Virus record (IMG/VR): IMGVR_UViG_3300023184_000171
Span: 1-52,254 of that record
Origin: a virus
Reading direction: 5' to 3' (one strand)
Length of the DNA stretch: 52,254 bases
How positions within the stretch are numbered: position 1 is the first letter of the stretch; the number at the start of each line of letters is the position of its first letter. The notes beneath the pieces are model-generated. The model did no database searches. It was not told the DNA's origin and was given only the letters and a program-made list of their open reading frames with translations. The translations under genes and the position numbers were made by a program. This document shows positions 13,352-42,556 of the stretch, piece by piece.

Positions 13352-13669
13352 ATGAAAACGAGTGAACTGCAAGGTGCTGCCCTTGATTGGGCGGTAGCGA
13401 AGTGCGAGGGAATTACTTTAGGGGTTGTGTATTACTTCCAACCATCAACAGATTGGGCACAAGGTGGCCCGATCATTGAGCGGGAGGAGATCAGCATTAC
13501 CAATGAAGCGGAGGGAAGATGGATCGGGGCTATTGATAACCCTGAAGCTGGTGGAGAATGGGACTGGCGCTGGAATCGGGTCGGCCCCACCCCACTCATC
13601 GCAGCCCTGCGTTGCTACGTTGCAAGCAAGTTGGGCGATGAGGTTGAAATCCCAGAGGAGTTGAAATAA
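13352..13669 (+). CDS. DUF2591 family phage protein
   Basis: This 105-aa protein reads as a full DUF2591 member: SELQGAALDWAVAKCEG at the N-terminus, a central QPSTDWAQGGPIIEREEI, and GPTPLIAALRCYVASKLGDEVEIPEEL at the end. The family is common in phages and prophages and has no known function. The ATG at 13352 is preferred over 13346 because the GGAG lies 7 nt before it but only 2 nt before the earlier ATG. The stop overlaps the next start as TAATG, so the peptidase downstream is probably co-translated. Confidence 0.8.
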   Translation: MKTSELQGAALDWAVAKCEGITLGVVYYFQPSTDWAQGGPIIEREEISITNEAEGRWIGAIDNPEAGGEWDWRWNRVGPTPLIAALRCYVASKLGDEVEIPEELK

Positions 13670-14667
13670 TGAAACGCTTACAAGCAATGCTGACCTACTG
13701 CCGTCCACACGGGGGTGAGGGTGAGAAGCAGTTCGTCAAGAGGTTCATCAAGCCATACAAACCGCTTGCCATGCTGGATGACAAGGGTGAGGTGATGGCG
13801 TGGTGTGTGCGGGTGGGGGACGCGCCTGTCCTGTGGTCGGGTCATGTTGATACGATGCACAAGCCCGATGCACCCGCTAAGCAATCAATCGTCTATGACG
13901 AGGGATGCGGCATGATTTACAAGGACGACAAGGTGATGCCGCTGGGTGCTGACAATGGCGCGGGTGTCTGGCTGATGCTGGAGATGCTGGATGCGGGTGT
14001 GCCGGGGACGTATCTCTTCCATCGTGGTGAGGAGCGCGGGGGTATCGGGTCGGGTGGCATAGCGAAGCACCACGAAGCGTTCCTCAAGCCGTTCAAGTAT
14101 GCCATCGCGTTCGACAGGCGGGGCACGGGGGATGTAATCACTGAGCAGATGTGCGGGGTGTGTTGCTCAGATGAGTTTGCGCTGGCACTCGCGGCACTAC
14201 TCAATACCAACGTGGCTATGGACTACAAGCCCGACAACACGGGCAGCTTCACTGACACCGCGAACTACATAGGCATCATCCCTGAATGCACCAACGTGAG
14301 CGTAGGGTATGACAACGAGCACACGCCCAACGAGACGCTGGATGTGTGGCACTTGATGCAGTTGCGCGATGCCGTGATAGCGGTCTTTAAAGCTGGCATC
14401 AGTTTGCCTGTGGTGCGCGACCCCAGCATAGTGGTAGACCGGTGGGGTGGCTTCGGTAGCTTCGGGGATAACTACGACTACCCGTTGTGCGCGGCAGAGG
14501 TGTTGGATATGCCGTTCAAAGACCTCATCAAGCTGGTGAAGACGACTCATCCAGAGGACATAGCGGAGTTGCTACTGTCACTGGCAGAGGAGGCAAGTGT
14601 AGCGGGGGCAGTGGAAGCAAACGATTCACAATACATGGAGAAAGATTATGCGCGGTATAGATATTGA
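13669..14667 (+). CDS. M20/M28-like zinc peptidase
   Basis: This 332-aa protein has the ordered metal-ligand motifs of di-zinc exopeptidases: SGHVD (His59, Asp61 as ligand and catalytic support), GADNGAG (Asp95 bridging), HRGEERGGIGS (Glu121 general base, Glu122 ligand), AFDRR (Asp149) and DNEHTPNE (His218). The fold is expected to cleave a peptide or aminoacyl bond in the cytoplasm, as there is no signal peptide. All ligands are present, so it is probably active. It overlaps the DUF2591 gene and is followed by a tiny membrane peptide. Such enzymes are unusual in phage genomes, and a role in degrading or releasing host peptides is inferred. Confidence 0.82.
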   Translation: MKRLQAMLTYCRPHGGEGEKQFVKRFIKPYKPLAMLDDKGEVMAWCVRVGDAPVLWSGHVDTMHKPDAPAKQSIVYDEGCGMIYKDDKVMPLGADNGAGVWLMLEMLDAGVPGTYLFHRGEERGGIGSGGIAKHHEAFLKPFKYAIAFDRRGTGDVITEQMCGVCCSDEFALALAALLNTNVAMDYKPDNTGSFTDTANYIGIIPECTNVSVGYDNEHTPNETLDVWHLMQLRDAVIAVFKAGISLPVVRDPSIVVDRWGGFGSFGDNYDYPLCAAEVLDMPFKDLIKLVKTTHPEDIAELLLSLAEEASVAGAVEANDSQYMEKDYARYRY

Positions 14668-15668: not shown

Positions 15669-15698
15669 TTGACAGGGGGGGATTCTCTCCCCTAGACT
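15669..15698 (+). promoter_or_regulatory. Candidate internal promoter for the MoxR-VWA triad
   Basis: A perfect -35 TTGACA (15669-15674) is followed after 18 nt by TAGACT (15693-15698), a fair -10. The spacer is itself a small inverted repeat, GGGG then CCCC around GATTCTC, which could serve as an operator. It lies 35 nt before the MoxR start and could express the triad separately from the upstream early genes. Confidence 0.5.
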
Positions 15699-15732
15699 TA
15701 CCAAAAAACAATTCACAACAAGGAGCATCACA

Positions 15733-16851
15733 ATGCAAGCACCTATGCTGTCGCATAAGCAAGTCTATTCACTCATCAAAGCGGTGGGTAGGAAGAGAAC
15801 GGTCATCGTGCAGGGGGAGACGGGCGTTGGTAAAACGTCCATCCAGATGGAGTTTATGCGTGACCCCGACTTTGCCAACCACCACGTTCGCCGCCCGTTG
15901 GAATGCACCCAGATGTCCGATGGTTCAGTATGGATGCCCGACATTGACCGAGAGTTGGGCGTGTCCCGCGAGTTGCCCAACGAGCGCTTCCACATCAACA
16001 CCAAGAACCGCAAGGGTGTGGACGGTTCCAAGCCGGTAGTCATCTGTCTGGATGAAGTGTTTAAGGCAACCAACCCGGTCAAGTGCATGATTTCCCCTGT
16101 GCTATATGAGCGCACCGTGGGTGACTATGAAGCCCCGGATGGCAGCATCGTGTGGGGTGCCACTAACCTAGCGGCTGAAGGGTTGGGGGACTCCCTCAAG
16201 ATGCACCTGCGCACACGCATGAAGATTGTAACCATGCGCAAGCCCACTCAGCCTGAATGGGCGAACGACTTCGCCATCCCCAACGGCCTACACCCTGCCG
16301 TTATCGCAGCCACCGCGCTGCATCCCGAGTGGTTCGACTCGTTCATGGACTACGAGCCGGGGGGTAAGCATGAGGGCAAGACGCTGGCTAAGGAGAATCC
16401 CTGCATCAACAACCCGCGCTTGGCACAGGAGGGCATCGTCAGCCCGCGCACACTGCACTCAGCCAGTGACTCGCTGCATGAGGCGCACAACATGGACAAG
16501 GAAACCCTGTTGGCTGACTTGTGTGGCACGGTGGGGGTTACGGCAGGGCAGATAGTTATGTCGGTCATGCGTCTGGGTAACGACATACCCGCACCGGAGC
16601 GTGTGTTTGCCGACCCTGACAACACACCGCTCTCTAACAATGCCAGTGCGCAAGCATTGCAGGTGTTCCAGTTGTTTAACCGCGCCACCACACGCGACGA
16701 TATGGCGGCTGTCGTGCGGTATGTTCGCCGGATGCGCACCGAGATGCAGACCATCTTTCGCCATAGCGTCGAGCATTCAGTTAAGAACCCTGTGTTCTCC
16801 ACCATCGCTGAGTTTCAGGTGATGTTGCAGGACGCTAGGTTGTTCGTATAA
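15733..16851 (+). CDS. MoxR/CobS-like AAA+ ATPase
   Basis: This 372-aa protein has Walker A GETGVGKTS (28-36), Walker B VVICLDE (102-108), sensor 1 in VWGATN (140-145) and a candidate arginine finger in HLRTRMK (159-164). This is the MoxR/CobS branch of AAA+ proteins, which remodel a partner that usually carries a von Willebrand A domain. The partner is plausibly the next gene, 6 bases downstream. CAAGGAGCATC precedes the ATG. The ATPase motifs are intact, so it should be active. The protein is a single domain without extra DNA-binding parts. Phage MoxR proteins exist, but their roles are not settled. Confidence 0.88.
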   Translation: MQAPMLSHKQVYSLIKAVGRKRTVIVQGETGVGKTSIQMEFMRDPDFANHHVRRPLECTQMSDGSVWMPDIDRELGVSRELPNERFHINTKNRKGVDGSKPVVICLDEVFKATNPVKCMISPVLYERTVGDYEAPDGSIVWGATNLAAEGLGDSLKMHLRTRMKIVTMRKPTQPEWANDFAIPNGLHPAVIAATALHPEWFDSFMDYEPGGKHEGKTLAKENPCINNPRLAQEGIVSPRTLHSASDSLHEAHNMDKETLLADLCGTVGVTAGQIVMSVMRLGNDIPAPERVFADPDNTPLSNNASAQALQVFQLFNRATTRDDMAAVVRYVRRMRTEMQTIFRHSVEHSVKNPVFSTIAEFQVMLQDARLFV

Positions 16852-16857
16852 GGAGGC

Positions 16858-18030
16858 ATGATGATTCCAAACCATACGTGGGAGGTAATGACGTTGCAGC
16901 AGAGGGTGTCGGCTTGTAACAGCGACATCATTGAGCATCCAGAGTTTGGGCGGTTGACGGGCATCGTGTTCATGGGCGAGGTCATCATCGACCCCGCTTG
17001 CCCCACCGCCGCAACGAATGGGCGCGACGTGCGCTACGGAGAGAAGTTCTGTAGCAAGCTGAACCAGAAGCAACTGCGCTACGTTGACCTGCATGAGAAC
17101 TTGCACAAAGGCTTGCGGCACTGCGTCTTATACAAAGCTATCGTGGAGAAGTATCCAGACGAGTCTAACCGTGCGCAGGACTACGTAATCAACGGGATGA
17201 TTGAGGAAGTTGACCCGGCGTTTCAGTTCGTTGAGCGCCCGTGTGCTGTGCTGGTGGATGTTAAGTATCAGGGCATGGGGTTCATAGAGGTGTTGAAAGA
17301 CCTGATAGCTAACCCACCGCCACCCAACGGTGGGGGCAGCACGTTGGATGAGCATGAGCCGATGGATGAAGCCCCTGAGTTGGGCGACGAGATAGAAGAC
17401 GCGCTACGTCAAGGCAAGATTGTGTCTGACCGCATACGGGGGGAAGCTGGCGAGAGCGGTGCGTTGGATGTGCTGCTGCGCCCACGTAGCACGGCGTGGC
17501 GAGAAGCTATGCTGGAGTTCATGCAGTCTGTGTGTGACGGGGATGAGTTGAGCCGCATCTGTCCCCCGAACAAGCGCTTGCTACCTTCCGGGTTCTTGAT
17601 GTGGTCGCATTACTCAGAGGCGGTGGGGGAAGTAGTCATCGCGGCGGACACATCAGGGTCGATGCGCGGCGTGTATCCGGTAGTGTTCGGAGAGATATCG
17701 CACATATGCCAGACGTTGATGCCTGAGTCAGTGCGGGTTATCTGGTGGGACAGTCAGGTTCGTGGCGAGCAGGTGTTCACGCCTGATAACTATGAGGCGA
17801 TAGGTAGTTTAATGAAACCAGAAGGTGGTGGTGGCACTCGCGTGTCTACTGTTGCCGACTACATACAGGAGAAACAATATGCACCGATAGCAGTGATATA
17901 CCTGACAGATGGATACATCGAGTCTGAATACCGCACCCCTGCACTGCCGATACTGTGGGGGGTTGTAGACAACACACGGTTTGTGCCGCGTGTTGGTAAG
18001 AAAATAGACATTTGCAGCTTCACAATCTAG
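16858..18030 (+). CDS. VWA-domain protein with an N-terminal HExxH zincin-like domain (DUF2201-like)
   Basis: This 390-aa protein has two parts. Residues about 60-120 hold HENLH (79-83) within DLHENLHKGLRH, then NRAQDYVINGMIEE, the pattern of the metallopeptidase-like domain of DUF2201 proteins. After an acidic linker (155-205), a VWA domain carries MIDAS residues DTSGSM (264-269), GGGGT (323-327) and YLTDGY (348-353). VWA proteins act with MoxR ATPases, in RavA-ViaA and chelatase-like pairs. The start is ATGATG, and the second ATG (16861) has better spacing from AGGAGG. The HExxH, if metal-bound, would make this a protease module driven by the AAA+ partner. Confidence 0.82.
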   Translation: MMIPNHTWEVMTLQQRVSACNSDIIEHPEFGRLTGIVFMGEVIIDPACPTAATNGRDVRYGEKFCSKLNQKQLRYVDLHENLHKGLRHCVLYKAIVEKYPDESNRAQDYVINGMIEEVDPAFQFVERPCAVLVDVKYQGMGFIEVLKDLIANPPPPNGGGSTLDEHEPMDEAPELGDEIEDALRQGKIVSDRIRGEAGESGALDVLLRPRSTAWREAMLEFMQSVCDGDELSRICPPNKRLLPSGFLMWSHYSEAVGEVVIAADTSGSMRGVYPVVFGEISHICQTLMPESVRVIWWDSQVRGEQVFTPDNYEAIGSLMKPEGGGGTRVSTVADYIQEKQYAPIAVIYLTDGYIESEYRTPALPILWGVVDNTRFVPRVGKKIDICSFTI

Positions 18031-18041
18031 GAGATATAAAA

Positions 18042-18950
18042 ATGCAGCACTACAATATTGATACATGCGCGATGCTGGTGGAAGTTAATGCGTCCGTGTG
18101 GACTGCTCGTAAGCTTGACCGAGCCACAACGGATGAAGTCATTACCAGCAAGAATGCCGCGTCCAAGGGTGCGGCGCGGGTCAACAAGCACTTGCTGGCG
18201 GGTCGCCCTGAGTTGGAGGTGATCATCACGCACGTTGGCGGTGTGCGGGGCTACGTGTATGAGAACACGCTGCCGTGGTCAGACAGCGGTTTGCGCTTGC
18301 TGCCGGTGGTTAAGTTTCAAGAGTTCAACACGCGCATGAAGGTAGAGGAAGATAAGTATTGGGAGCTATGTAAGTCTTTCGTGGACGTATACCCCTCGTT
18401 GATTACAGCCCAAGCGTTGCAGTTGGGGGATATGTTCAAGCGCGAGGACTTCCCCAGTGCGGACACTATCCTGCACAAGTTCGGGTTTCAGGTGAACTAC
18501 ATGCCTGTGCCCACTGCGGGGGACTTCCGTGTAGACATCGGCAATGAGGCACAAGCTGAGCTTAAAGCCCAGTTGGTCAAGCTGGCTGACGAGCGGCTAA
18601 CGTCTGCGATGGATGACATCAAAGGCAAGCTTAAAGCCCACCTTGTCCATATGTCCGGGCGGTTGGCTGTGGACATTGTAGATAACGTGCCGAAGGTGCG
18701 GGGGTTTCACGACTCATTGATTGAGTATGGCTTCGACCTGTGCGACATGGTGAAGAGCTTGAATCTTACCCAAGATGTAGAACTGGAGGATGCACGGGCG
18801 GCACTTGAGCGGTGCTTGGGGGGCATAACTACGCGCACTAACAAGCGGGGGCGGGAGTTGACCGTAGCGGATACGCTGCGCGAGGATATGGGCAAGCGCA
18901 GCGCAGTGAAGGCGCAGGTGGATGAGATTCTTAACAAGTTCACATGGTAA
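18042..18950 (+). CDS. DUF3150-like third member of the MoxR-VWA cassette
   Basis: This 302-aa soluble protein begins with an alpha/beta stretch (DTCAMLVEVNASVWTARKLDRATTDEV) that resembles the DUF3150 start. Long helical regions follow (about 170-300; AELKAQLVKLADERLTSAMDDIKGKLKAHLVH, DTLREDMGKRSAVKAQVDEILNKF). I recall DUF3150 genes sitting beside CobS/MoxR-type ATPases and VWA genes in phages and plasmids. The family call is from memory. AGGAGATATAAAA precedes the ATG at 18042, 11 bases after the VWA stop, so the three are probably one operon. Function unknown; possibly the substrate or adaptor of the AAA+/VWA machine. Confidence 0.6.
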   Translation: MQHYNIDTCAMLVEVNASVWTARKLDRATTDEVITSKNAASKGAARVNKHLLAGRPELEVIITHVGGVRGYVYENTLPWSDSGLRLLPVVKFQEFNTRMKVEEDKYWELCKSFVDVYPSLITAQALQLGDMFKREDFPSADTILHKFGFQVNYMPVPTAGDFRVDIGNEAQAELKAQLVKLADERLTSAMDDIKGKLKAHLVHMSGRLAVDIVDNVPKVRGFHDSLIEYGFDLCDMVKSLNLTQDVELEDARAALERCLGGITTRTNKRGRELTVADTLREDMGKRSAVKAQVDEILNKFTW

Positions 18951-23457: not shown

Positions 23458-23674
23458 ATGTGAAATAGTTAAACATAAAGGGGGATATGTGCTAACAACA
23501 AATAAAGACCTTAGAAATGTATTGAAGAGCGCCGCGCAACAAGGGTGGGAGTTTGAATGCAAGAACAACCACATCAAGGGCAAGCACCCTAGCGGCAAGA
23601 CCACGACGATAAGCCGAAGCCCAAGCGACGGGCGGGCAATCAAAAACATAATGAGAGACTTGAGGATTGCATGA
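23426..23674 (+). CDS. HicA-like small protein
   Basis: This 82-aa basic protein starts at GTG 23426, with GGAG 8-9 nt upstream, inside the end of the previous gene. After HCAKCEIVKHKGGYVLTTNKDLRNVLKSAAQQGWEFE comes NNHIKGKHPSGKTTTISRSPSDGRAIKNIMRDLR, a pattern like the dsRBD-fold HicA mRNA interferases (His followed by a basic beta-hairpin and a final helix). The usual HicB partner is missing. It could be an RNA-binding protein rather than an active toxin. The adjacent nuclease gene starts by ATGA overlap. Confidence 0.5.
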   Translation: MNVKSYPHCAKCEIVKHKGGYVLTTNKDLRNVLKSAAQQGWEFECKNNHIKGKHPSGKTTTISRSPSDGRAIKNIMRDLRIA

Positions 23675-23964
23675 CACCCGAAGCTAAGGTAAAGAAGCGG
23701 GTGCGTGTTTTCTTAAAAGAACTTGGCGCATATTATTCCATGCCGGTAACAGGCGGGTATGGCGTGTCGGGTGTGCCAGACTTCCTAGTGTGCTGGCGTG
23801 GTAAGTTCTTCGGAGTTGAGTGTAAAGCCAACGGCAACAAGCCCACCGCGCTGCAAGAAAAGAATATGCACGACATACGCGAAGCGGGTGGGCACACAAT
23901 AGTTATTGATGAAAACAACGTAGACCAACTTGGGTCATGGATAAGGGCGCACGAATATGAATGA
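23671..23964 (+). CDS. VRR-NUC domain nuclease
   Basis: This 97-aa stand-alone VRR-NUC protein has a helical N-terminus, GGYGVSGVPDFLVCWRG (28-44, Asp37), FFGVECKANGNKPTALQ (46-62; Glu50, Lys52, Gln62) and HTIVIDE. These form the PD-(D/E)xK core that cuts structured DNA such as branched intermediates. Phage members are typically this size. It sits just upstream of DNA polymerase, fitting a role in replication or recombination. Confidence 0.88.
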   Translation: MTPEAKVKKRVRVFLKELGAYYSMPVTGGYGVSGVPDFLVCWRGKFFGVECKANGNKPTALQEKNMHDIREAGGHTIVIDENNVDQLGSWIRAHEYE

Positions 23965-33812: not shown

Positions 33813-33972
33813 AACCCCGGTGTGGGGTAGCTTCTTCGTGCCAACGCTGGATGTATACGCAACGAAAGAGACAGGGCTGAAGGTAGCCCTGCATCTTCGC
33901 ATCAAAGGTAAAACAACTTTCGGTCTATACAAAGGCAAGCACGGCGTGTTGTTTACGCGGCTTTCCGTATGA
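33775..33972 (+). CDS. Small basic protein at the convergent end
   Basis: This 65-aa basic, beta-rich protein (KKIRIYYPWNETPVWGSFFVPTLDVYATKETGLKVALHLRIKGKTTFGLYKG) starts inside the end of the primase gene (38-nt overlap). Its stop lies 20 nt inside the end of the convergent 2867-aa gene. The ordered strand pattern and compositional quality favour a real gene, though there is no strong SD. No family recognised. Confidence 0.5.
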   Translation: MPKKIRIYYPWNETPVWGSFFVPTLDVYATKETGLKVALHLRIKGKTTFGLYKGKHGVLFTRLSV

Positions 33973-36900
33973 TGTCGCGGTATAGTTTAGCCGTATCTAT
34001 CTGCTCTTTGCGTAACTGGTCTATGCGGTTGCGCTTTTCGCGGGGCGAAAGATCAGAAGCTTTAACTTCAGTTATGGCATCGGTTGACTGTTTCATATCT
34101 TTTTTAAAGTCCCCGTAACTGGTGCCAATTGAAACCCGTTGCATATTAGCGTTGAGATACGCTTCGGCTTCAGCGGGGTTACCATCCGCGTACAGTTTGT
34201 TGTAGGTATTAACCGCCCGCTCACCGTCCTGCATCAACTCATAAGTGCGGTTGATGATACCGCCAGCGTCGTTTGGCTGAAACGCGCTACTAAAGAACGC
34301 AACTTGGGAAGCTTTCTTTTCAGCCTGTTGCACTTTAGGGCTTGCAATAAACGCATCAGCCAGTGACACAGCAGACAGCAACGTTTGTGCTCCAACGCCT
34401 TTTATAAATTGATCCACTTTAACTGGCGATACCCCCGGAATGCCCATGCTGCCAAGCACCTTTGCCAGTTCAGTTGTTGTATCTTTATACCGTTGCGCAG
34501 GGTCAAGGGACTGCATACGAGCAGACTCAACATCTGCGCCGGTAAACAAGTCTTTACCGGTTATGCTTTCAACAACCGGCACAAGGAATTGCGGTATGCC
34601 CTTGCTGGAACCGCCCGGAATCGCGTTAATACCCAACTGCACCAACGCTTGCGCAATGGGCGCTACGTCGCCATCTCCAGCTACAGAATTGTAAATGGCT
34701 TCCGGTACGGCTTTAGCCAGTAAACCGAACTCAAACGGAATTGGTATCTTAAGCGGTTCATCAAACCCCGGAACACGCACAAACCAGTTGTTAAGTTTTT
34801 GCTCCGGTGTGGCGTTCTTGTAGGCTTCGTCGTCTTCCATCGCCATCGCATACATAACCGTAAACGCAGCCATTGCCACAACCCGTTGCTTAAACTTTTC
34901 TTGAATCTTTAAGCGCTCGTTGTAAGGCATATTGCCCGTCATGGCTTTAACAAACACACTCAAGCCTTGTATCTGCGCGTTAAAGAACGGATACAACGTA
35001 TTGGCCCATTGCACCGAAGGGGATACACCGCGCCGATTAAAATCTGTAATTTCATTGGCGGCTACCCACGCCTCCATTTCGTTCAAACCCTGCTTGATGT
35101 AGCTGTTGTAAGCAGACAAACGCACACCGACATCAGCCTCCATGCTCTTGGCTTCAGCATACGCAAGCAATCCTGATATTGACTGCTTACCACTAACAAC
35201 ACCGCGCAAAACCGTAGACAGCGCTTCTTTGCTGCTTCCGGCAAGAACTTGCCCGCCCAGCAACCCTTGGCTTTCAAGCAACGCAGCTTCGCGGCTGGTG
35301 CCAGTCAACGATTTATATATGTTTTTAAAGGGGTCAACAATCGGTATAAAGTTAGCGCCACTGGTTCCCAGCGCAGAAAACGAATCTTTAACAACCTGCC
35401 GAAGCGGATACATCGGACTCAAAATAACAGCGCGGCGCAGGAACTGCGCAGGGAGGCCCATAAGTTCCAGCGCCTTGGGCATTGTAGTTTTAACGCCTTC
35501 CAGCCCTTTGACCAATAGCGTCGGCGGGATACCTTCAAACATCGTATCGTTTGTGTCTTTTACGCGCACCGCAATATCTTCGCCGTCTTTTCTAAAGCGA
35601 ATAACATTAGCGCCTTTATGCGCATCCGAAATTTTAAAGTCTTCTTTTTGTTCCCCGGTTTTTTTGTCTTTATATTTACGAGTTTCAAGCATGTTGAGCT
35701 TGCGCAGTGTATCCACAACACTACCCGTTGCAATGTTACGCAGCGCCATGTCTGTCAGCAGGTTTGTGTTCTGCACCGCGCTGGTAAAGATGTTACTGAT
35801 CGCAGTGTCACCACCCACCAAACCGTGCAAATGCGGTTGGTCTGTTAAATTTCCAACAATAATCGGACTTGATTCACTGCCCAAAATCAATTCAATTTCA
35901 CCGCTAGGGTTTTCCCGGTAGAAAGGAATGTAGTCTTTGGTAGCGCGAAGAGCATCAGCTTTTTCTTTAGAAAGTGCCCCCGCTTGTTCGGCAAAATCAA
36001 CCAGCCCTTTGTTGTATTCGTTGTATATACCCCGCGCTTTTTCAAATGCAGTATTAACTCTGGGCATTGCCGCAATCTCGCGCTCAAATTGTTGCAGCTT
36101 AGCCCCGGTCAATACTTGATTGCCGTTCTTGTCTTTACCAAAATTTAATTTATCAACGCCAATTTTCTCGTTCTTAACCCGCTGCGCTGCCATATACATG
36201 GTAAACATATCACCAGCATCTTTTTCAGCAAGACCTGATTCACCTATAGCTTTAAACACCTTAACAAGATTAGCGCCGTCCTTGTTCTTGGTTTCAACCA
36301 TCCAATACTTGTTAGCACCAGTGCCTTTTTGTTTGTATTCAAGAGCGCCGTTTGCCGCAACCAACCGCGTAAAGTTCATTATCTTGTCACGCGCACTCAA
36401 GTCATAACGCACTTGGGACGCTTCCAAGTCTGTTATCTTTTTGCCAGCAACGCCTTTTTTAAGCGCCGCCCAAACGGGCGCATACCGGTCTACAAACTGG
36501 GTCATGCCAGCCAAACCCATTACGTTGCCGCGTATCTCGTCAATCTTAGACCTGTCCTGCGCCACTACCGTGTGCATCATAGCCCACGATTCCGCGCTCA
36601 TACCTGCGGGGCGTGGGCCTTCCTTGCTTCTAAAAGCAATTGTGCCATCGGGGGATACGTAGGCACCCAGCCGCCCCGCTGCCAAGTTGCGTGACGACTC
36701 ACGGATCAACGCTTGGATTTCTTTAGCATCACGCTTTGCCATCTCCGACAGACCGGAGTTGCGGAAGTAACTACGCACCGCAGCAACCATGTCCCGCACA
36801 AAGGTCTTAACCTTCTCGGTAAAGGTGGGCGCAACACGACGCCCCTCGGCAGCGTGGGCAACCATCTCGCGCACAAGTGCCATTTTAATGGCTTCTCTAG

Positions 36901-39900
36901 AGTCTACTTCTTGCGTGGTTGTTTCTTGGGTTTGTGTTTCGGTCTGTTTATTTTGAAAATTTGCCAATTTTACAATGTCCGCAACAGCAACGTCGTATGC
37001 GCGTTTTAAATTAGCCGTTAATTTTTCTACGCCATGCGTTTTGATAGCATCTTCTATATATTCTTCAGCTACCCAATTTTCTCCTTGGTTATCCCACGCG
37101 TTGTAAATGTCTTCACCAGCAATAGCGTGTATTTTAGTATGTAAAATGTCATTAGCTTGTTTCTGTAAATTAGCTGGTATCACCGTAAGGACACTACTAA
37201 CCCATTTTTCACTGGCATCCCATACATCGTACATGTTATCAATAGCATTTTCTGGGGTAATACTGCTAAAAGCTTTTACCAAATTGGTAGGCATAACGGG
37301 CGTTGCCATAGCCGCTGCCGCGCCTTTCAGCAATTTTCTACGTGTCAAATCAACTTCTGGGCGGGTGTATCCCAACGCTGCCAGCGCGGTCTCAACGTCA
37401 GGGAACACGCCCAGCGCCGTAGCAACGTCTGCTACGTGCGCATCGCCCTGCTTGAACAGCCGGTCAACCAGCGCTTGCATACCGTCTTTACCAATGATGG
37501 TATCTACGCCGTAGTGCCCAATCAACTCGTGGGCAAACGTTTCTTCAAGGTCAGCAAGGGTCTTGTGCGCCTCGCCTATGATGACAACGGTGCCGTCAGG
37601 CATCACAGCGCCTTTGGCAGAAGTAACACCATCTTCAGCCATTGCATCGCGTAACGCTTGGGGGGCATCGGCCAATGTTGGGGCGTATACAACCTCTACC
37701 CCTTTGGGCAGGGCTTTCTTAATCCGCGCCGCCACGTCCGCTGCGGCTTTGGCGTCAACACCACGGTCTTGTTCCGTGGCTTCGCGGTAGTCTGTCTTAG
37801 TTTTACGACCAGTTTTAGAGGTGGTTACTTTTCCGGGAGTTTTTTCTTTGTCTGGAATACCAAAACGCATACGAGGAGGCACACCACGACCCGACACTTC
37901 ACGATCCCCAATTACTACGCCAGTGCGAATTACTTCTTGTAAATTTTTTTGGCTTTTTTCAGAACTTTGATACAACTCTAAATTTATATTGTTAGCTTCA
38001 GCGTCTTCTATAATTTTTAAAAGCTTGTTTCCCACCGCATCTTTTTTAGACTGCACATACGCCATGTTTGCCATGAACTGCTCAGACTGCTGTTTTTTAG
38101 CGGCAATCTTTTTAAGCGGCGCTAACTGTTTATCTATAGCTTCGTACGCAATCTTGGTTTTTCTATAATTGCTTGGCAGCAACGACAGCTTGCGTTCCAA
38201 AGCTTCGGCTTTAGATTTTTGCGTAGGAGTTTCAGAAACGGTTGAAACAACTTCACGAGAAACGTTTATGTGCAAACGCTCTTCAAGTCTTGCTATCTCA
38301 TCAAGGATAGCGCCGCGCCGGTTTTCAAGCTGTATTTTCTTAGGCGTATTTGTTTCTGCGCCAGCGTAGGGGTTTAGCTGTTCAGTATTCCCCGTAATGC
38401 CTACGGCTTTAGCTATTATACGAGCGCGACTACGCAAGTCTTTTATACGTTTTTCAATAGCCGCAATTTCTGTTCCCGGCAAACCCCCTTTAACTGGAAC
38501 TAGTTCAGAAACAAAAGTGCGAGTGCCGGTAACATAGGGGGCCAAATCTTTAGCAACGCTATCCGACAGGCCATCCTCAAAAACTTTGGTATTTTTTAAT
38601 ATGGTTTCTATGGTATTTTTATGCGCTTTGTATTTTTCAGTTGCCCGCGCTATTTCGCTTTCAGTTTTTAACTGTATTATGTATTTTTCTAAACGTGTTA
38701 ATAAAGCACGTTCTTGTGCTAGTTTTTTATTATTTTCAGCAATGAATTGAATATACTTTTGCCGCGCTTTTTCTTCAATGCTTTTAGCTTTTGCAACCTG
38801 CGTATCCGTCAATTTTACAAAAAACTTAGAATTTTTTACAGAGCCTATAGCTCGTTTTAAACTACGAAGCGATTTAGCTAAAGCAAAACCGCGTTTCGTA
38901 TTGGCGTTAATAAGAGCTTCAATTTCCATCCGCGTTTTAGACACTTGCCCACGCAGAATATCTATATCCTTAGATACTCTATTTTTTATTTCTTCTTGCA
39001 CTTCTATATTTTGTTTCAGTGTAAGGGCTTTTTCTTTTGCTTTACGTGCAGCTTCAAGTTTTGCCGCACGAGTCTCTTCCGCTTTTTGTTGTTTAAGATT
39101 AAAAGCTTTTTCTTTGCGCAATCTTTCAAATTGCGCAGGAGTTTCCCTAGAAACAGAAGTTAACTTGCTGGGAAACAGATTTTTTTGTTTAGAAGTATCT
39201 TCTAAAGCTTGCCGATTAAGCGCCAATGCATCTTGTAGCGCTTGGGCATCCACTTCCCTACCCATAACAACGCGATCCGCCAAATCCGTGGCTGCTTCAA
39301 TTGTTTGGGCAGTTCCACGGCCTTTTTCAAGCAACCCCTTTGCTTCCCGCATAGCTGCACGAACGCCGGGGGCCATTACCTGCTCACCTAAAGCGGCGGT
39401 TAATTTGTTGAGTGCGTACGAACTTCCTTCTGCACGAGATGTTTCAGCAGCTTCGCTTTGCGGGGCAAGCCCAAACGGAATTATTTTACTTTGGGGCCGT
39501 GCTTTTTTACCAACAAGGGCCTCTACAAAATAATCAATCCCGCGCTGTAATTTTGCTAACTCTCCGGTTCTTTTATCAGAAATTGTCATGCCGCGTTCAA
39601 TGGGGCCAGCAGCAACTTTTTGTTGCATTGCCGTAAGCGTTTTTGTTAATTGTGTAATCTCTAATTGCTTACGGCGTATGGCAATCGTTGCCTCCATATT
39701 AGGAGGCGCTTTACTAGCGGCCTCTTTCATGGCGGCAAGTTCATTTTTTAAACGCAGTAGTTTATCCCCAAGTTTAAAATACGCTTCTTTTAACGCCCCA
39801 TGCATTACGCTGCTGGCGGGTGGTTTACCTTTTTCCGCAAGGGCTTTAAATTTGGTATTTATTTGTGTAACTATTTTATTTTTTTGAACATCGGACAAGG

Positions 39901-42556
39901 CTGGTATCCCCGCCGCAGCACGACGCGCAGACACTTCGTTAACAACGGATTCTGCTATTTTGTTGCTTAATTGCGCCGCTTCAACTAGCTGTTGGTCGCG
40001 TATGTTTTTTGTATACCCCGCTTTAGCAACGGCGGCAGTTATTGTAGAGTCAGTTATTTCGCCCTTACGCAACGAATCAACTATGTTGCCAAGGTCAAAA
40101 AGCGCAGTTTTGCGCGTATCCGCGTAAGCATTAGCCTCTGATACATTCTTCCTAACAATATCTTCCGGTTCCGCGTCTGTTGTTGCAAGCGGGAAATTCT
40201 GTAACGCTGTTTCAGCTTCTGTTGCAACAGGCTGCGCGGCTTGTTTTGCCGCACGGCTAAGTTCTTTAAGCTCTTGCAACGTTGCTTCTATCCGCACAAA
40301 CCTTTTACCAGCGGGGGTAAGCTTGCCATTCTGCACAAGGTCTTTACTTGGGAATACCCTTTTACGAAACGCTTCCAACTTTTGAATGTGCGGATCAAGA
40401 ATTTTAAGGGCTTCTTCGGCTTGCTGCGCATTCGTTAAATCATAGGTAGTATTGGCCGGTATTTTTAAACCAAGCACATTTGCTACTTGAGGGGTTAGCT
40501 GTTTGCTATTAAGCGCCGTATCTACTTGTTGATACGTCCGGGCAGCGCCCACGGATACTTTTCCGTTACCAAGAAGAACGGTTTTAAGCGGGTTCTCAAG
40601 TAGCTGCTGCGCTTGTTGGGTGCCTTGTTCAAAGCCAAGAGCCTCTAACTGCTTAGCCAAACGGCTTTTGTATTCCGCCGTTCTTTCCGCAGCTATACCT
40701 GCTTCGGCTTCTGGCCCCGTCTTTTTTTGAAATGTTTCATAATTTTTTTCTATTTCTTGACGTTTTTTCTGAGCAGCCTGTTGCGTAGCTTGTTGGGCTT
40801 TTTGCTGCGCTTTTTGCTTCTGTTCCGTATCCCGTTCAGCCATTTCTTGTTGCCGTGTAGAAAGTATATCCGGCGTAAGTGTGGCGGGAGGCATAGGCGC
40901 AATGTATTCATCTTGCATCTGCGCAGCCATAGTATCTTGCGCTTGAGCTTGCTGCGGCAAGTTAAACAGGTCTGCTTGGGGGCCGGGAGCCACACCCGCC
41001 GCTTGCTGCATCTGTTGATCTTTTTGTGCTTGCAGCGCTTGTGTCTTTTGCATAAGCGCATCAGGGATAACCTGCTTCTTGCTCATGTAACGCTGCGTTG
41101 CGGCTTGCGCGGCTTTTAACTCGGAATCAACATCTAAGATTACGTTGCTAGCTTTAGCAGTTTTTATAAGTTCGCTTTGAGCCGCTTCAATTTTCTGCAA
41201 CTGCTGCAACGCCGCGTTATACGCAGGAACATTTTTCTGTTCTTGCGCGGCTTCCACTTCCGCATTTAGCCGGTCACCTTCAGCTTTTGTTTTACGATAC
41301 TCATCTTGCAGAGATGCTTCAGGCGTCTGGGTTTCGATGCCGGTAGGCAACGCTTGCCCTTGCAGGGGTGTATACGCACCGCCAGTCTCACCAAAGATAT
41401 CGGTCTGCGTCCCGCCATAAGCAGGTAACCCCTCCGTCTTTTTAGTCCCCGGTTGCGCAGGAGCCATTCCGGGCAACGCTTGAAATGCTTGTTGTTGCTG
41501 TTGCAGTGCTGCTTGCTGCTGTTGCAGTGCTGCTTGCTGCAACGCTTCTTTCTCGTCCCTAACTTGTTGAATTTCGCCAAGCCGATCACGCGCTGCGCTG
41601 CGGCGACTAGCACCGCCCACACCACCAAACACGGCGGCGGGGCCAGCAACACCCACCGCAGTGGCGATATACTCCTCCTGCGCACCTTTATCAAACAGGG
41701 GCAGCCCCGCTTGCCAACGCTCAAGCACTGCTTGCGCGGTTTCTGTTGGGATTTCTATAACTTCACCAGCCACAACCCCCCGCCCAACTGTTCCGGCGAG
41801 GCTACGCTTTGATGCTTCAACCAGTGCCAGTTCTGCTTTTTCAACACCCAGCTTTGGTAACGCGCTGGCAAAAAGTTTACCAACACCCAAGCGGCCTAAA
41901 ACAAAAGCAGTCTCAGCAACATCTAGCGCGGCAGCAGGGGCAGCGGCAGTGGCGGCTTTACCGTAATCAAGGGGCTTATTTTCTTTAGCTTTTTCTTGTT
42001 CCTCCGCTTGGCGTTCGACGTACTGCCCAACAAACGCCGGATAGGACGCTGCCAACGCACCCAAAACCCCACCGCCAATCGTGCCTATCGGCCCCGCCAG
42101 TGACCCAATGCCAGCGCCTGCACGCGCCGCACCCATGACCGCGCCTATCTGGGGTAGAGACTCGCCCAACTGCCCACGCCACATATTCAGTAGAGAGCTT
42201 ACGCCGCCCTGTTCTTCTGGTTTTTCACCGCCAAACAAACCGTATTTTTCTTGAGCTTTTTGAACATCTTCCCAGCTTTTTGATTTTGCAATCTCGGAAC
42301 GTTTAGCTTGGGAGCGTTCAATACCTTTCTTAATTGCCTCATCAGAGAGGCCGAACAGCGGCGCAAATGTGGTTGAGTAGGCAGATTTGAGCGCTTCATA
42401 ACCTGACTTTGTGCTGGGTATAAGCCCTTCTTCGGCTTTTTTTACATCTGCGTATAGCTTGGGAAACTGGTCTTTGGCAAGTTTTATAGCATCATCATCA
42501 GACAAGCCGCTAGGAACTTCAACATACTTGCCAGATGGTGTTTGTAAATACGGCAT
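33953..42556 (-). CDS. Giant polyvalent protein, ejected virion protein candidate
   Basis: This 2867-aa protein begins MPYLQTPSGKYVEVPSGLSDDDAIKLAKDQFP. It then has a Gly/Ala hydrophobic stretch (about 140-185), long Gln/Ala coils (about 330-620), and a Lys/Glu coil region that is AT-rich (about 900-1500). A zincin-like HELIGH follows (1676-1681), then a twin-arginine-like run, TRRKLLKGAAAAM (1738 on). The C-terminal region, with ITDFNRRG and TLYPFFNAQIQG, resembles the LPD38 domain. Such multi-domain proteins are thought to be packaged and injected with DNA. GGAG precedes the ATG. It is the last gene of the late operon. Confidence 0.82.
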   Translation of the reverse strand: MPYLQTPSGKYVEVPSGLSDDDAIKLAKDQFPKLYADVKKAEEGLIPSTKSGYEALKSAYSTTFAPLFGLSDEAIKKGIERSQAKRSEIAKSKSWEDVQKAQEKYGLFGGEKPEEQGGVSSLLNMWRGQLGESLPQIGAVMGAARAGAGIGSLAGPIGTIGGGVLGALAASYPAFVGQYVERQAEEQEKAKENKPLDYGKAATAAAPAAALDVAETAFVLGRLGVGKLFASALPKLGVEKAELALVEASKRSLAGTVGRGVVAGEVIEIPTETAQAVLERWQAGLPLFDKGAQEEYIATAVGVAGPAAVFGGVGGASRRSAARDRLGEIQQVRDEKEALQQAALQQQQAALQQQQQAFQALPGMAPAQPGTKKTEGLPAYGGTQTDIFGETGGAYTPLQGQALPTGIETQTPEASLQDEYRKTKAEGDRLNAEVEAAQEQKNVPAYNAALQQLQKIEAAQSELIKTAKASNVILDVDSELKAAQAATQRYMSKKQVIPDALMQKTQALQAQKDQQMQQAAGVAPGPQADLFNLPQQAQAQDTMAAQMQDEYIAPMPPATLTPDILSTRQQEMAERDTEQKQKAQQKAQQATQQAAQKKRQEIEKNYETFQKKTGPEAEAGIAAERTAEYKSRLAKQLEALGFEQGTQQAQQLLENPLKTVLLGNGKVSVGAARTYQQVDTALNSKQLTPQVANVLGLKIPANTTYDLTNAQQAEEALKILDPHIQKLEAFRKRVFPSKDLVQNGKLTPAGKRFVRIEATLQELKELSRAAKQAAQPVATEAETALQNFPLATTDAEPEDIVRKNVSEANAYADTRKTALFDLGNIVDSLRKGEITDSTITAAVAKAGYTKNIRDQQLVEAAQLSNKIAESVVNEVSARRAAAGIPALSDVQKNKIVTQINTKFKALAEKGKPPASSVMHGALKEAYFKLGDKLLRLKNELAAMKEAASKAPPNMEATIAIRRKQLEITQLTKTLTAMQQKVAAGPIERGMTISDKRTGELAKLQRGIDYFVEALVGKKARPQSKIIPFGLAPQSEAAETSRAEGSSYALNKLTAALGEQVMAPGVRAAMREAKGLLEKGRGTAQTIEAATDLADRVVMGREVDAQALQDALALNRQALEDTSKQKNLFPSKLTSVSRETPAQFERLRKEKAFNLKQQKAEETRAAKLEAARKAKEKALTLKQNIEVQEEIKNRVSKDIDILRGQVSKTRMEIEALINANTKRGFALAKSLRSLKRAIGSVKNSKFFVKLTDTQVAKAKSIEEKARQKYIQFIAENNKKLAQERALLTRLEKYIIQLKTESEIARATEKYKAHKNTIETILKNTKVFEDGLSDSVAKDLAPYVTGTRTFVSELVPVKGGLPGTEIAAIEKRIKDLRSRARIIAKAVGITGNTEQLNPYAGAETNTPKKIQLENRRGAILDEIARLEERLHINVSREVVSTVSETPTQKSKAEALERKLSLLPSNYRKTKIAYEAIDKQLAPLKKIAAKKQQSEQFMANMAYVQSKKDAVGNKLLKIIEDAEANNINLELYQSSEKSQKNLQEVIRTGVVIGDREVSGRGVPPRMRFGIPDKEKTPGKVTTSKTGRKTKTDYREATEQDRGVDAKAAADVAARIKKALPKGVEVVYAPTLADAPQALRDAMAEDGVTSAKGAVMPDGTVVIIGEAHKTLADLEETFAHELIGHYGVDTIIGKDGMQALVDRLFKQGDAHVADVATALGVFPDVETALAALGYTRPEVDLTRRKLLKGAAAAMATPVMPTNLVKAFSSITPENAIDNMYDVWDASEKWVSSVLTVIPANLQKQANDILHTKIHAIAGEDIYNAWDNQGENWVAEEYIEDAIKTHGVEKLTANLKRAYDVAVADIVKLANFQNKQTETQTQETTTQEVDSREAIKMALVREMVAHAAEGRRVAPTFTEKVKTFVRDMVAAVRSYFRNSGLSEMAKRDAKEIQALIRESSRNLAAGRLGAYVSPDGTIAFRSKEGPRPAGMSAESWAMMHTVVAQDRSKIDEIRGNVMGLAGMTQFVDRYAPVWAALKKGVAGKKITDLEASQVRYDLSARDKIMNFTRLVAANGALEYKQKGTGANKYWMVETKNKDGANLVKVFKAIGESGLAEKDAGDMFTMYMAAQRVKNEKIGVDKLNFGKDKNGNQVLTGAKLQQFEREIAAMPRVNTAFEKARGIYNEYNKGLVDFAEQAGALSKEKADALRATKDYIPFYRENPSGEIELILGSESSPIIVGNLTDQPHLHGLVGGDTAISNIFTSAVQNTNLLTDMALRNIATGSVVDTLRKLNMLETRKYKDKKTGEQKEDFKISDAHKGANVIRFRKDGEDIAVRVKDTNDTMFEGIPPTLLVKGLEGVKTTMPKALELMGLPAQFLRRAVILSPMYPLRQVVKDSFSALGTSGANFIPIVDPFKNIYKSLTGTSREAALLESQGLLGGQVLAGSSKEALSTVLRGVVSGKQSISGLLAYAEAKSMEADVGVRLSAYNSYIKQGLNEMEAWVAANEITDFNRRGVSPSVQWANTLYPFFNAQIQGLSVFVKAMTGNMPYNERLKIQEKFKQRVVAMAAFTVMYAMAMEDDEAYKNATPEQKLNNWFVRVPGFDEPLKIPIPFEFGLLAKAVPEAIYNSVAGDGDVAPIAQALVQLGINAIPGGSSKGIPQFLVPVVESITGKDLFTGADVESARMQSLDPAQRYKDTTTELAKVLGSMGIPGVSPVKVDQFIKGVGAQTLLSAVSLADAFIASPKVQQAEKKASQVAFFSSAFQPNDAGGIINRTYELMQDGERAVNTYNKLYADGNPAEAEAYLNANMQRVSIGTSYGDFKKDMKQSTDAITEVKASDLSPREKRNRIDQLRKEQIDTAKLYRDIIRKAA
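41497..41535 (-). repeat. 21-bp tandem repeat in the polyvalent gene
   Basis: An 18-base block at 41497-41514 recurs exactly at 41518-41535, a 21-bp period, coding for Gln/Ala/Leu heptads (QQAALQQ) in the N-terminal coil. It is likely to expand and contract by slippage. Confidence 0.75.

Follow-up and report, generated by a model that had tools for sequence, protein, structure and literature searches.

What does a virus gain from three adjacent genes that encode an ATPase, a protein combining a protease motif with a metal-binding domain, and a DUF3150 protein? The question is raised by the virus record IMGVR_UViG_3300023184_000171, whose 52,254 bases were analysed as one window; all coordinates of the trio are positions in that window. 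At 15733-18950 on the + strand, a MoxR-type AAA+ ATPase is followed by a DUF2201 protein, which contains a von Willebrand factor A (VWA) domain, and then by the DUF3150 protein. Machines of the MoxR-VWA type are mostly known as chaperones that load metal. In this trio, a strictly conserved protease motif lies on the VWA adaptor, which is accompanied by a third partner. The analysis identifies the trio as a real and widespread variant of the MoxR-VWA kind, in which the core pair is known and no account of the DUF3150 partner was found in the literature searched. We assign a probability of about one half to the reading that the three genes form a single ATP-driven remodelling protease of this kind, with a zincin domain on the VWA protein and DUF3150 as third subunit, acting early in infection.

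Organization of the trio and its promoter

The genes for the ATPase (15733..16851, 372 aa), the DUF2201 protein (16858..18030, 390 aa) and the DUF3150 protein (18042..18950, 302 aa) are separated by gaps of 6 bp and 11 bp, and each is preceded by a purine-rich ribosome site. The third open reading frame (ORF) starts at an ATG with a GGAG site, while a longer version from a TTG start at 18012 would overlap the second gene. Upstream, a sigma-70-type promoter, TTGACA-N18-TAGACT, was observed at 15669..15698 on the + strand. The first-pass annotation of this DNA had described three consecutive genes, with gaps of at most 11 bp, behind a TTGACA promoter, and every one of these elements was found in place.

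The promoter is kept in relatives that are 84% and 58% identical. Its motif occurred near the first trio gene in 28 of 106 related loci, compared with 3 of 250 positions before the second or third trio gene and 8 of 428 before other ORFs 200 aa or longer. This contrast in motif frequency supports a single operon under a host-type promoter of its own, and since the loci are related, the p-values of the enrichment are only indicative. Over the whole region, promoter-like sites were not above the level of shuffled sequence (9 found, 12.5 expected). The spacer at 15675-15692 forms an imperfect inverted repeat of a G-run and a C-run, which is nearer to perfect in one relative (locus L005) and absent from another (L009); it is possibly an operator.

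The ATPase and the zincin-VWA protein

Both hallmarks of a MoxR-VWA system were identified: a MoxR/dynein-related (AAA_5-type) ATPase with Walker A, Walker B, sensor 1 and arginine residues and, encoded beside it, a VWA protein with an intact metal ion-dependent adhesion site (MIDAS; DxSxS, T, D). On its own the ATPase is weak in Pfam, and it was placed through phrog_1297 (ATPase, 7e-29) and through its family, in which 15 of 25 members match AAA_5, the dynein-related group. Its Walker A (GETGVGKT) and Walker B (VVICLDEV) motifs, sensor 1 and two arginines are kept in all members of the 80%-non-redundant set, with G31, G33, K34, D107, E108, N145, R162 and R239 invariant. Midasin is its nearest solved relative by sequence.

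The product of the second gene (phrog_1314) exceeds the Pfam gathering scores of both DUF2201_N (PF13203; putative metallopeptidase) and DUF2201 (PF09967; VWA-like). Together with the HExxH motif (HENLH, residues 79-83) and an acidic ligand in a second helix, these matches place it in the DUF2201 family and confirm the earlier description of an HExxH domain joined to an intact MIDAS VWA domain. The MIDAS residues are DTSGS (264-268), T327 and D351. Among 80%-non-redundant phage copies, the zincin residues H79, E80, H83 and D108 are kept in 86 of 86, and D264, S266, S268 and D351 in 88 of 88, with T327 in 87. Because the HExxH, MIDAS, Walker and sensor residues are all retained, essentially without variation in the phage set, the proposal does not fail through residue loss, which the first-pass annotation had named as a finding that would speak against it.

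The predicted structure consists of a helical zincin domain, with the HExxH helix at 70-85 and a second helix at 100-118 that bears D108, followed by a helical linker and a C-terminal Rossmann VWA domain. By analogy with gluzincins, D108 is a candidate third zinc ligand, and one member of the family matches Peptidase_M48 at 7e-4. In the fold search, the VWA domain matched the Rea1/MDN1 MIDAS, Ro60 and further VWA proteins, while NorQD ranked lower. Confidence in the model is low at residues 228-235 and 249-253, which adjoin the VWA domain. A PNRRxLxxGxxxP loop in this part is largely kept from phages to plasmids and is a candidate for a finger that would enter the ATPase pore.

Two other assignments were rejected. 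PHROG labels this protein as an HNH endonuclease, yet DUF2201_N, DUF2201, HExxH and MIDAS span its length. The same label is attached to the gp25 family (phrog_1314) in many phage records, such as NC_008720 gp25, NC_023581 and NC_023719, and likewise to the DUF3150 protein of phage Tunturi_3; for the gp25 family, this widely propagated name is unsupported by the domains. An aerobic cobaltochelatase (CobN/CobS/CobT) was also discarded, with the second product matching DUF2201 and not CobT. No CobN-like protein was detected among the proteins scanned, a scan that covered part of the ORFs.

The DUF3150 protein

The third protein, modelled as long helices with short strands, scores below the Pfam threshold for DUF3150 when taken alone, and its membership stands at family level. 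PF11348 is matched by 20 of 29 family members at E <= 0.1 (best 5.5e-8), profile-profile comparison with the plasmid DUF3150 proteins gave a probability of 94% (E 9e-8), and the nearest annotated viral fold to the model carries the name DUF3150 (E 4.5e-17). The description of the third gene as DUF3150-like is thus borne out. A fold search of the PDB returned no significant solved relative. DUF3150 is absent from the literature searched, most subscription journals lying outside it; within the same literature, no function was found for DUF2201 and no description of the AAA+/zincin-VWA/DUF3150 trio.

Co-occurrence of the three families in viral sequences

The neighbourhood survey suggested by the first-pass annotation was carried out on viral contigs anchored either on DUF3150 (the best 80 of 564 confirmed relatives) or on the VWA protein (80 kept), which were scanned with a profile for each of the three families; duplicates were removed before counting. 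Where flanks of at least 3.5 kb were available on both sides, both partners were present in 31 of 31 DUF3150-anchored and 27 of 31 VWA-anchored loci. The full trio was found in 125 of 150 distinct contigs, always on one strand (125/125), with a median span of 3.4 kb. Four gene orders were observed among these 125: AAA-VWA-DUF3150 (59), DUF3150-AAA-VWA (43), AAA-DUF3150-VWA (13) and VWA-AAA-DUF3150 (10). Homologues scattered at random without each other, the pattern that would have spoken against a common system, were not what the survey found.

Such a pattern could also arise if the genes were merely conserved neighbours, held together by phage synteny and never assembled into a physical complex. 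Distances within the trio follow those of the DNA polymerase nearly as closely as they follow one another, and much of the viral co-inheritance is, to judge from these distances, vertical. Other neighbours recur too, among the most constant being a 97-aa gene at 23671-23964 (105 loci), which has no Pfam match and lies directly upstream of the DNA polymerase gene. A mirror-tree correlation is uninformative alone, as all genes follow the phage phylogeny. Beyond the polymerase signal, however, AAA-VWA and AAA-DUF3150 distances remain correlated (partial r 0.54 and 0.52, from points that are not independent), the four orders always keep to one strand, and the three families turn up again on unrelated plasmids, and once more in deeply diverged form. 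Repeated reordering without separation, together with the plasmid copies, is not explained by ancestry alone, and synteny without a complex appears very improbable.

Copies on plasmids and in other genomes

By tblastn, the DUF3150 family was detected on 44 plasmids, mostly of Burkholderiaceae. Those plasmids among the ones read that have the full set show the order AAA-DUF3150-VWA, often adjoining a type IV secretion system block or PRTRC genes. At four Burkholderiaceae plasmid loci (L176, L198, L199 and L202), the trio lies directly upstream of type IV secretion genes, and at L176 it is also downstream of PRTRC genes. An alignment search of genome contigs gave eight loci, and contigs assigned by binning to Rhodocyclus purpureus and to two further proteobacteria also contain the trio.

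A diverged version was identified on pRA1 (IncA; L203 14829-22294, same strand), where a CbbQ_C-type AAA gene is followed by bet and exo, and then by genes for DUF3150 (E 8e-89) and a CobT-type VWA protein. The latter starts with HEAAH and then NILEDCRIE, which is the zincin pattern. The VWA counterparts on pCAR1.2 (IncP-7) and a Providencia plasmid show the same pattern (HExxH, then an NxxED helix), and on both plasmids the AAA, DUF3150 and VWA genes are consecutive. The phage profiles barely recognise these proteins. Since the plasmid modules repeat all three parts, the combination of AAA, zincin-VWA and DUF3150 recurs at a depth near the limit of detection. Two of the three diverged modules (L203, L204 and L205) adjoin phage-like recombination genes (Bet/Exo; RecT/YqaJ), a hint, to be taken as a lead only, that the target might be a DNA-bound complex.

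Of the 1103 plasmid records found to carry DUF3150 of the pRA1 type, 970 are typed as conjugative. Mobile elements of two major kinds carry the unit: DUF3150-bearing conjugative plasmids and phages, where N4 gp24/gp25 are published core genes of N4-like phages with unknown function (PMC4193335, PMC7650795). This distribution bears on the claim of a three-gene unit with its own promoter: co-inheritance, promoter and intact motifs held, whereas the unit is neither confined to phages nor wholly undescribed.

Phages and conjugative plasmids meet the same host defences, and DUF3150 is widespread on broad-host-range plasmids. The machine might therefore serve host takeover, dismantling or cleaving a host immune or nuclease complex with DUF3150 as target adaptor. 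The trio matches no PADLOC defence family (best value 0.057), a result that fits an anti-defence role and by which a known anti-phage defence system was rejected. Against such a role, a near-core pair in all N4-like phages resembles a core function and not a variable counter-defence gene, and we consider it quite unlikely.

Partial and degenerate sets

Several sets depart from the complete trio and weigh against a single obligate protease. In Variovorax megaplasmid copies (L181 7938-9224; L201 4938-6224), ATVLH replaces HExxH, so that the HE is lost, with MIDAS, ATPase and DUF3150 intact. By their motifs these copies are natural protease-dead versions; the zincin being degenerate in this lineage, proteolysis may not be obligatory everywhere. 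DUF3150 is absent from the whole genomes of the VWA-bearing phages N4, Presley, RHph_N38, PG11, 121Q, GAP31 and phage G, and in all of these except phage G an AAA match was present in the stretch read. Conversely, a Manganitrophus plasmid and phage Tunturi_3 encode DUF3150 with another, classic AAA and DUF1257, without the zincin-VWA protein of the family (L178 4854-7876, also with DUF2997; L180 2117-6771). VWA and DUF3150 are both absent from Pelagibacter-type phages with a related terminase, and the trio is therefore not universal in that podovirus-like group.

Survival of a lineage with a degenerate HExxH also agrees with a NorQD/CobST-like chaperone that inserts a metal or cofactor, in which the HExxH domain would hold or pass a metal and cut no peptide. 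The best worked-out relatives (NorQD, CobST and CoxDE) load metal, and the plasmid versions match the CobT and CbbQ_C families. Holding a metal alone, however, needs no catalytic E80, which is invariant in the phage set, and no metalloenzyme gene was recognised beside the trio in the loci read. Metal insertion is accordingly regarded as decidedly unlikely.

Genome context of the window

The trio shares the + strand with the DNA polymerase and helicase genes, while the terminase and most of the identified structural and ejection genes are on the - strand. The polymerase, terminase and helicase families point to a podovirus-like group other than Schitoviridae, with terminase relatives in Pelagibacter phages.

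This position bears on a possible role in virion assembly, in which the MoxR-VWA pair would assemble structural proteins and the zincin would trim them. Virion assembly was proposed for the same two-protein architecture in jumbo phages by a study that cites a MoxR-vWA pair which an archaeal virus needs to assemble its tail (PMC7824862), and a MoxR-like ATPase was reported among the proteins that a staphylococcal jumbo phage co-packages. The trio is nevertheless found on conjugative plasmids, which have no virion, often adjoining type IV secretion genes. This, together with its place in the replication block opposite most structural genes, disfavours virion assembly, which we consider unlikely. 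Given the trio's own host-type promoter within a replication-side operon, early action is most likely.

Other features of the window and its relatives were observed. A second peptidase-like gene, Peptidase_M28 (phrog_4191), is located at 13669-14667, upstream of the trio by about 1 kb. On the - strand, at 33953-42556, a 2867-aa ORF has LPD38, a polyvalent-protein domain, as its sole Pfam match; a gene assigned by its match to a DNA-ejection family lies nearby. The cyanophage records OQ594354, OL906435 and PP438419 (MinM2, Pag-Yong1 and Pra-JY27) differ in names and hosts and agree in length (65014 bases) and in hit statistics; they may be one virus.

Proposed mechanism

For the preferred reading, an ATP-driven remodelling protease, NorQD offers a working model. 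There, a finger of the VWA protein reaches into the AAA+ pore, the linker that connects the VWA and N-terminal domains is stretched as ATP drives rotation, and the role proposed for the MIDAS is to hold the target (PMC13036017). In NorD, the MIDAS is required for action on the target and dispensable for ring binding (PMC9976466). By analogy, the phage AAA+ protein would form a hexameric ring on which the VWA domain of the second protein would dock, with the MIDAS metal gripping an acidic residue of the target protein. ATP-driven twisting would be transmitted through the linker to the N-terminal domain. Since this domain is a zincin in the phage protein, a NorQD-like motion would strain the MIDAS-held target and offer it to the protease, which would cut it locally once strained or partly unfolded. 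DUF3150 could serve as the third subunit, either structural or an adaptor, and match the machine to its target. We infer that the complex would act early on a host protein or on a DNA-bound replication or recombination complex, and not on virions.

A bolder proposal, which we put forward tentatively as plausible though short of probable, is that the trio represents a class of ATP-driven metalloprotease that is absent from the literature searched. Its zincin would be carried on a MIDAS-VWA adaptor, DUF3150 would be obligate, and the machine would act after entry, in phages and conjugative plasmids alike, on DNA-bound complexes or host proteins.

Comparison with known systems

The trio had been put forward as a candidate for an undescribed system, which holds in part: the two-gene core was already published, and what goes beyond it is the DUF3150 partner. 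A MoxR ATPase paired with a metallopeptidase-vWA protein was described in group 2.2 jumbo phages (Iyer et al. 2021, PMC7824862). This pair shares with the trio of the window the MoxR ATPase and the vWA protein with an N-terminal metallopeptidase domain; it differs in the virion-assembly role proposed for it and in that no DUF3150 partner was described. N4 gp24/gp25 and the corresponding core genes of other Schitoviridae share phrog_1314/DUF2201, with HExxH and MIDAS, and an adjacent upstream AAA+ ATPase. They are about 25% identical to the window proteins, and the whole genomes of N4, Presley, RHph_N38 and PG11 lack DUF3150.

The analogy drawn by the first-pass annotation to AAA+/VWA remodelling machines is supported, with NorQD, CbbQO and Rea1/Midasin as working models. 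NorQ-NorD, CbbQ-CbbO, RavA-ViaA and Rea1/Midasin share a MoxR/dynein-related AAA+ ring and a MIDAS VWA domain in contact with the target. They differ in lacking DUF3150, and a zincin in the VWA partner was not described for them in the literature examined.

The plasmid clusters of IncA (pRA1), IncP-7 (pCAR1.2) and Providencia differ from the phage trio in their CobS/NorQ-type AAA with CbbQ_C, in a CobT-type VWA protein of about 600 aa and, on pRA1, in the bet and exo genes between AAA and DUF3150. Their sequence similarity to the phage proteins is at the detection limit, whereas the three functional parts, the VWA protein that starts with a zincin and the location on one strand are shared.

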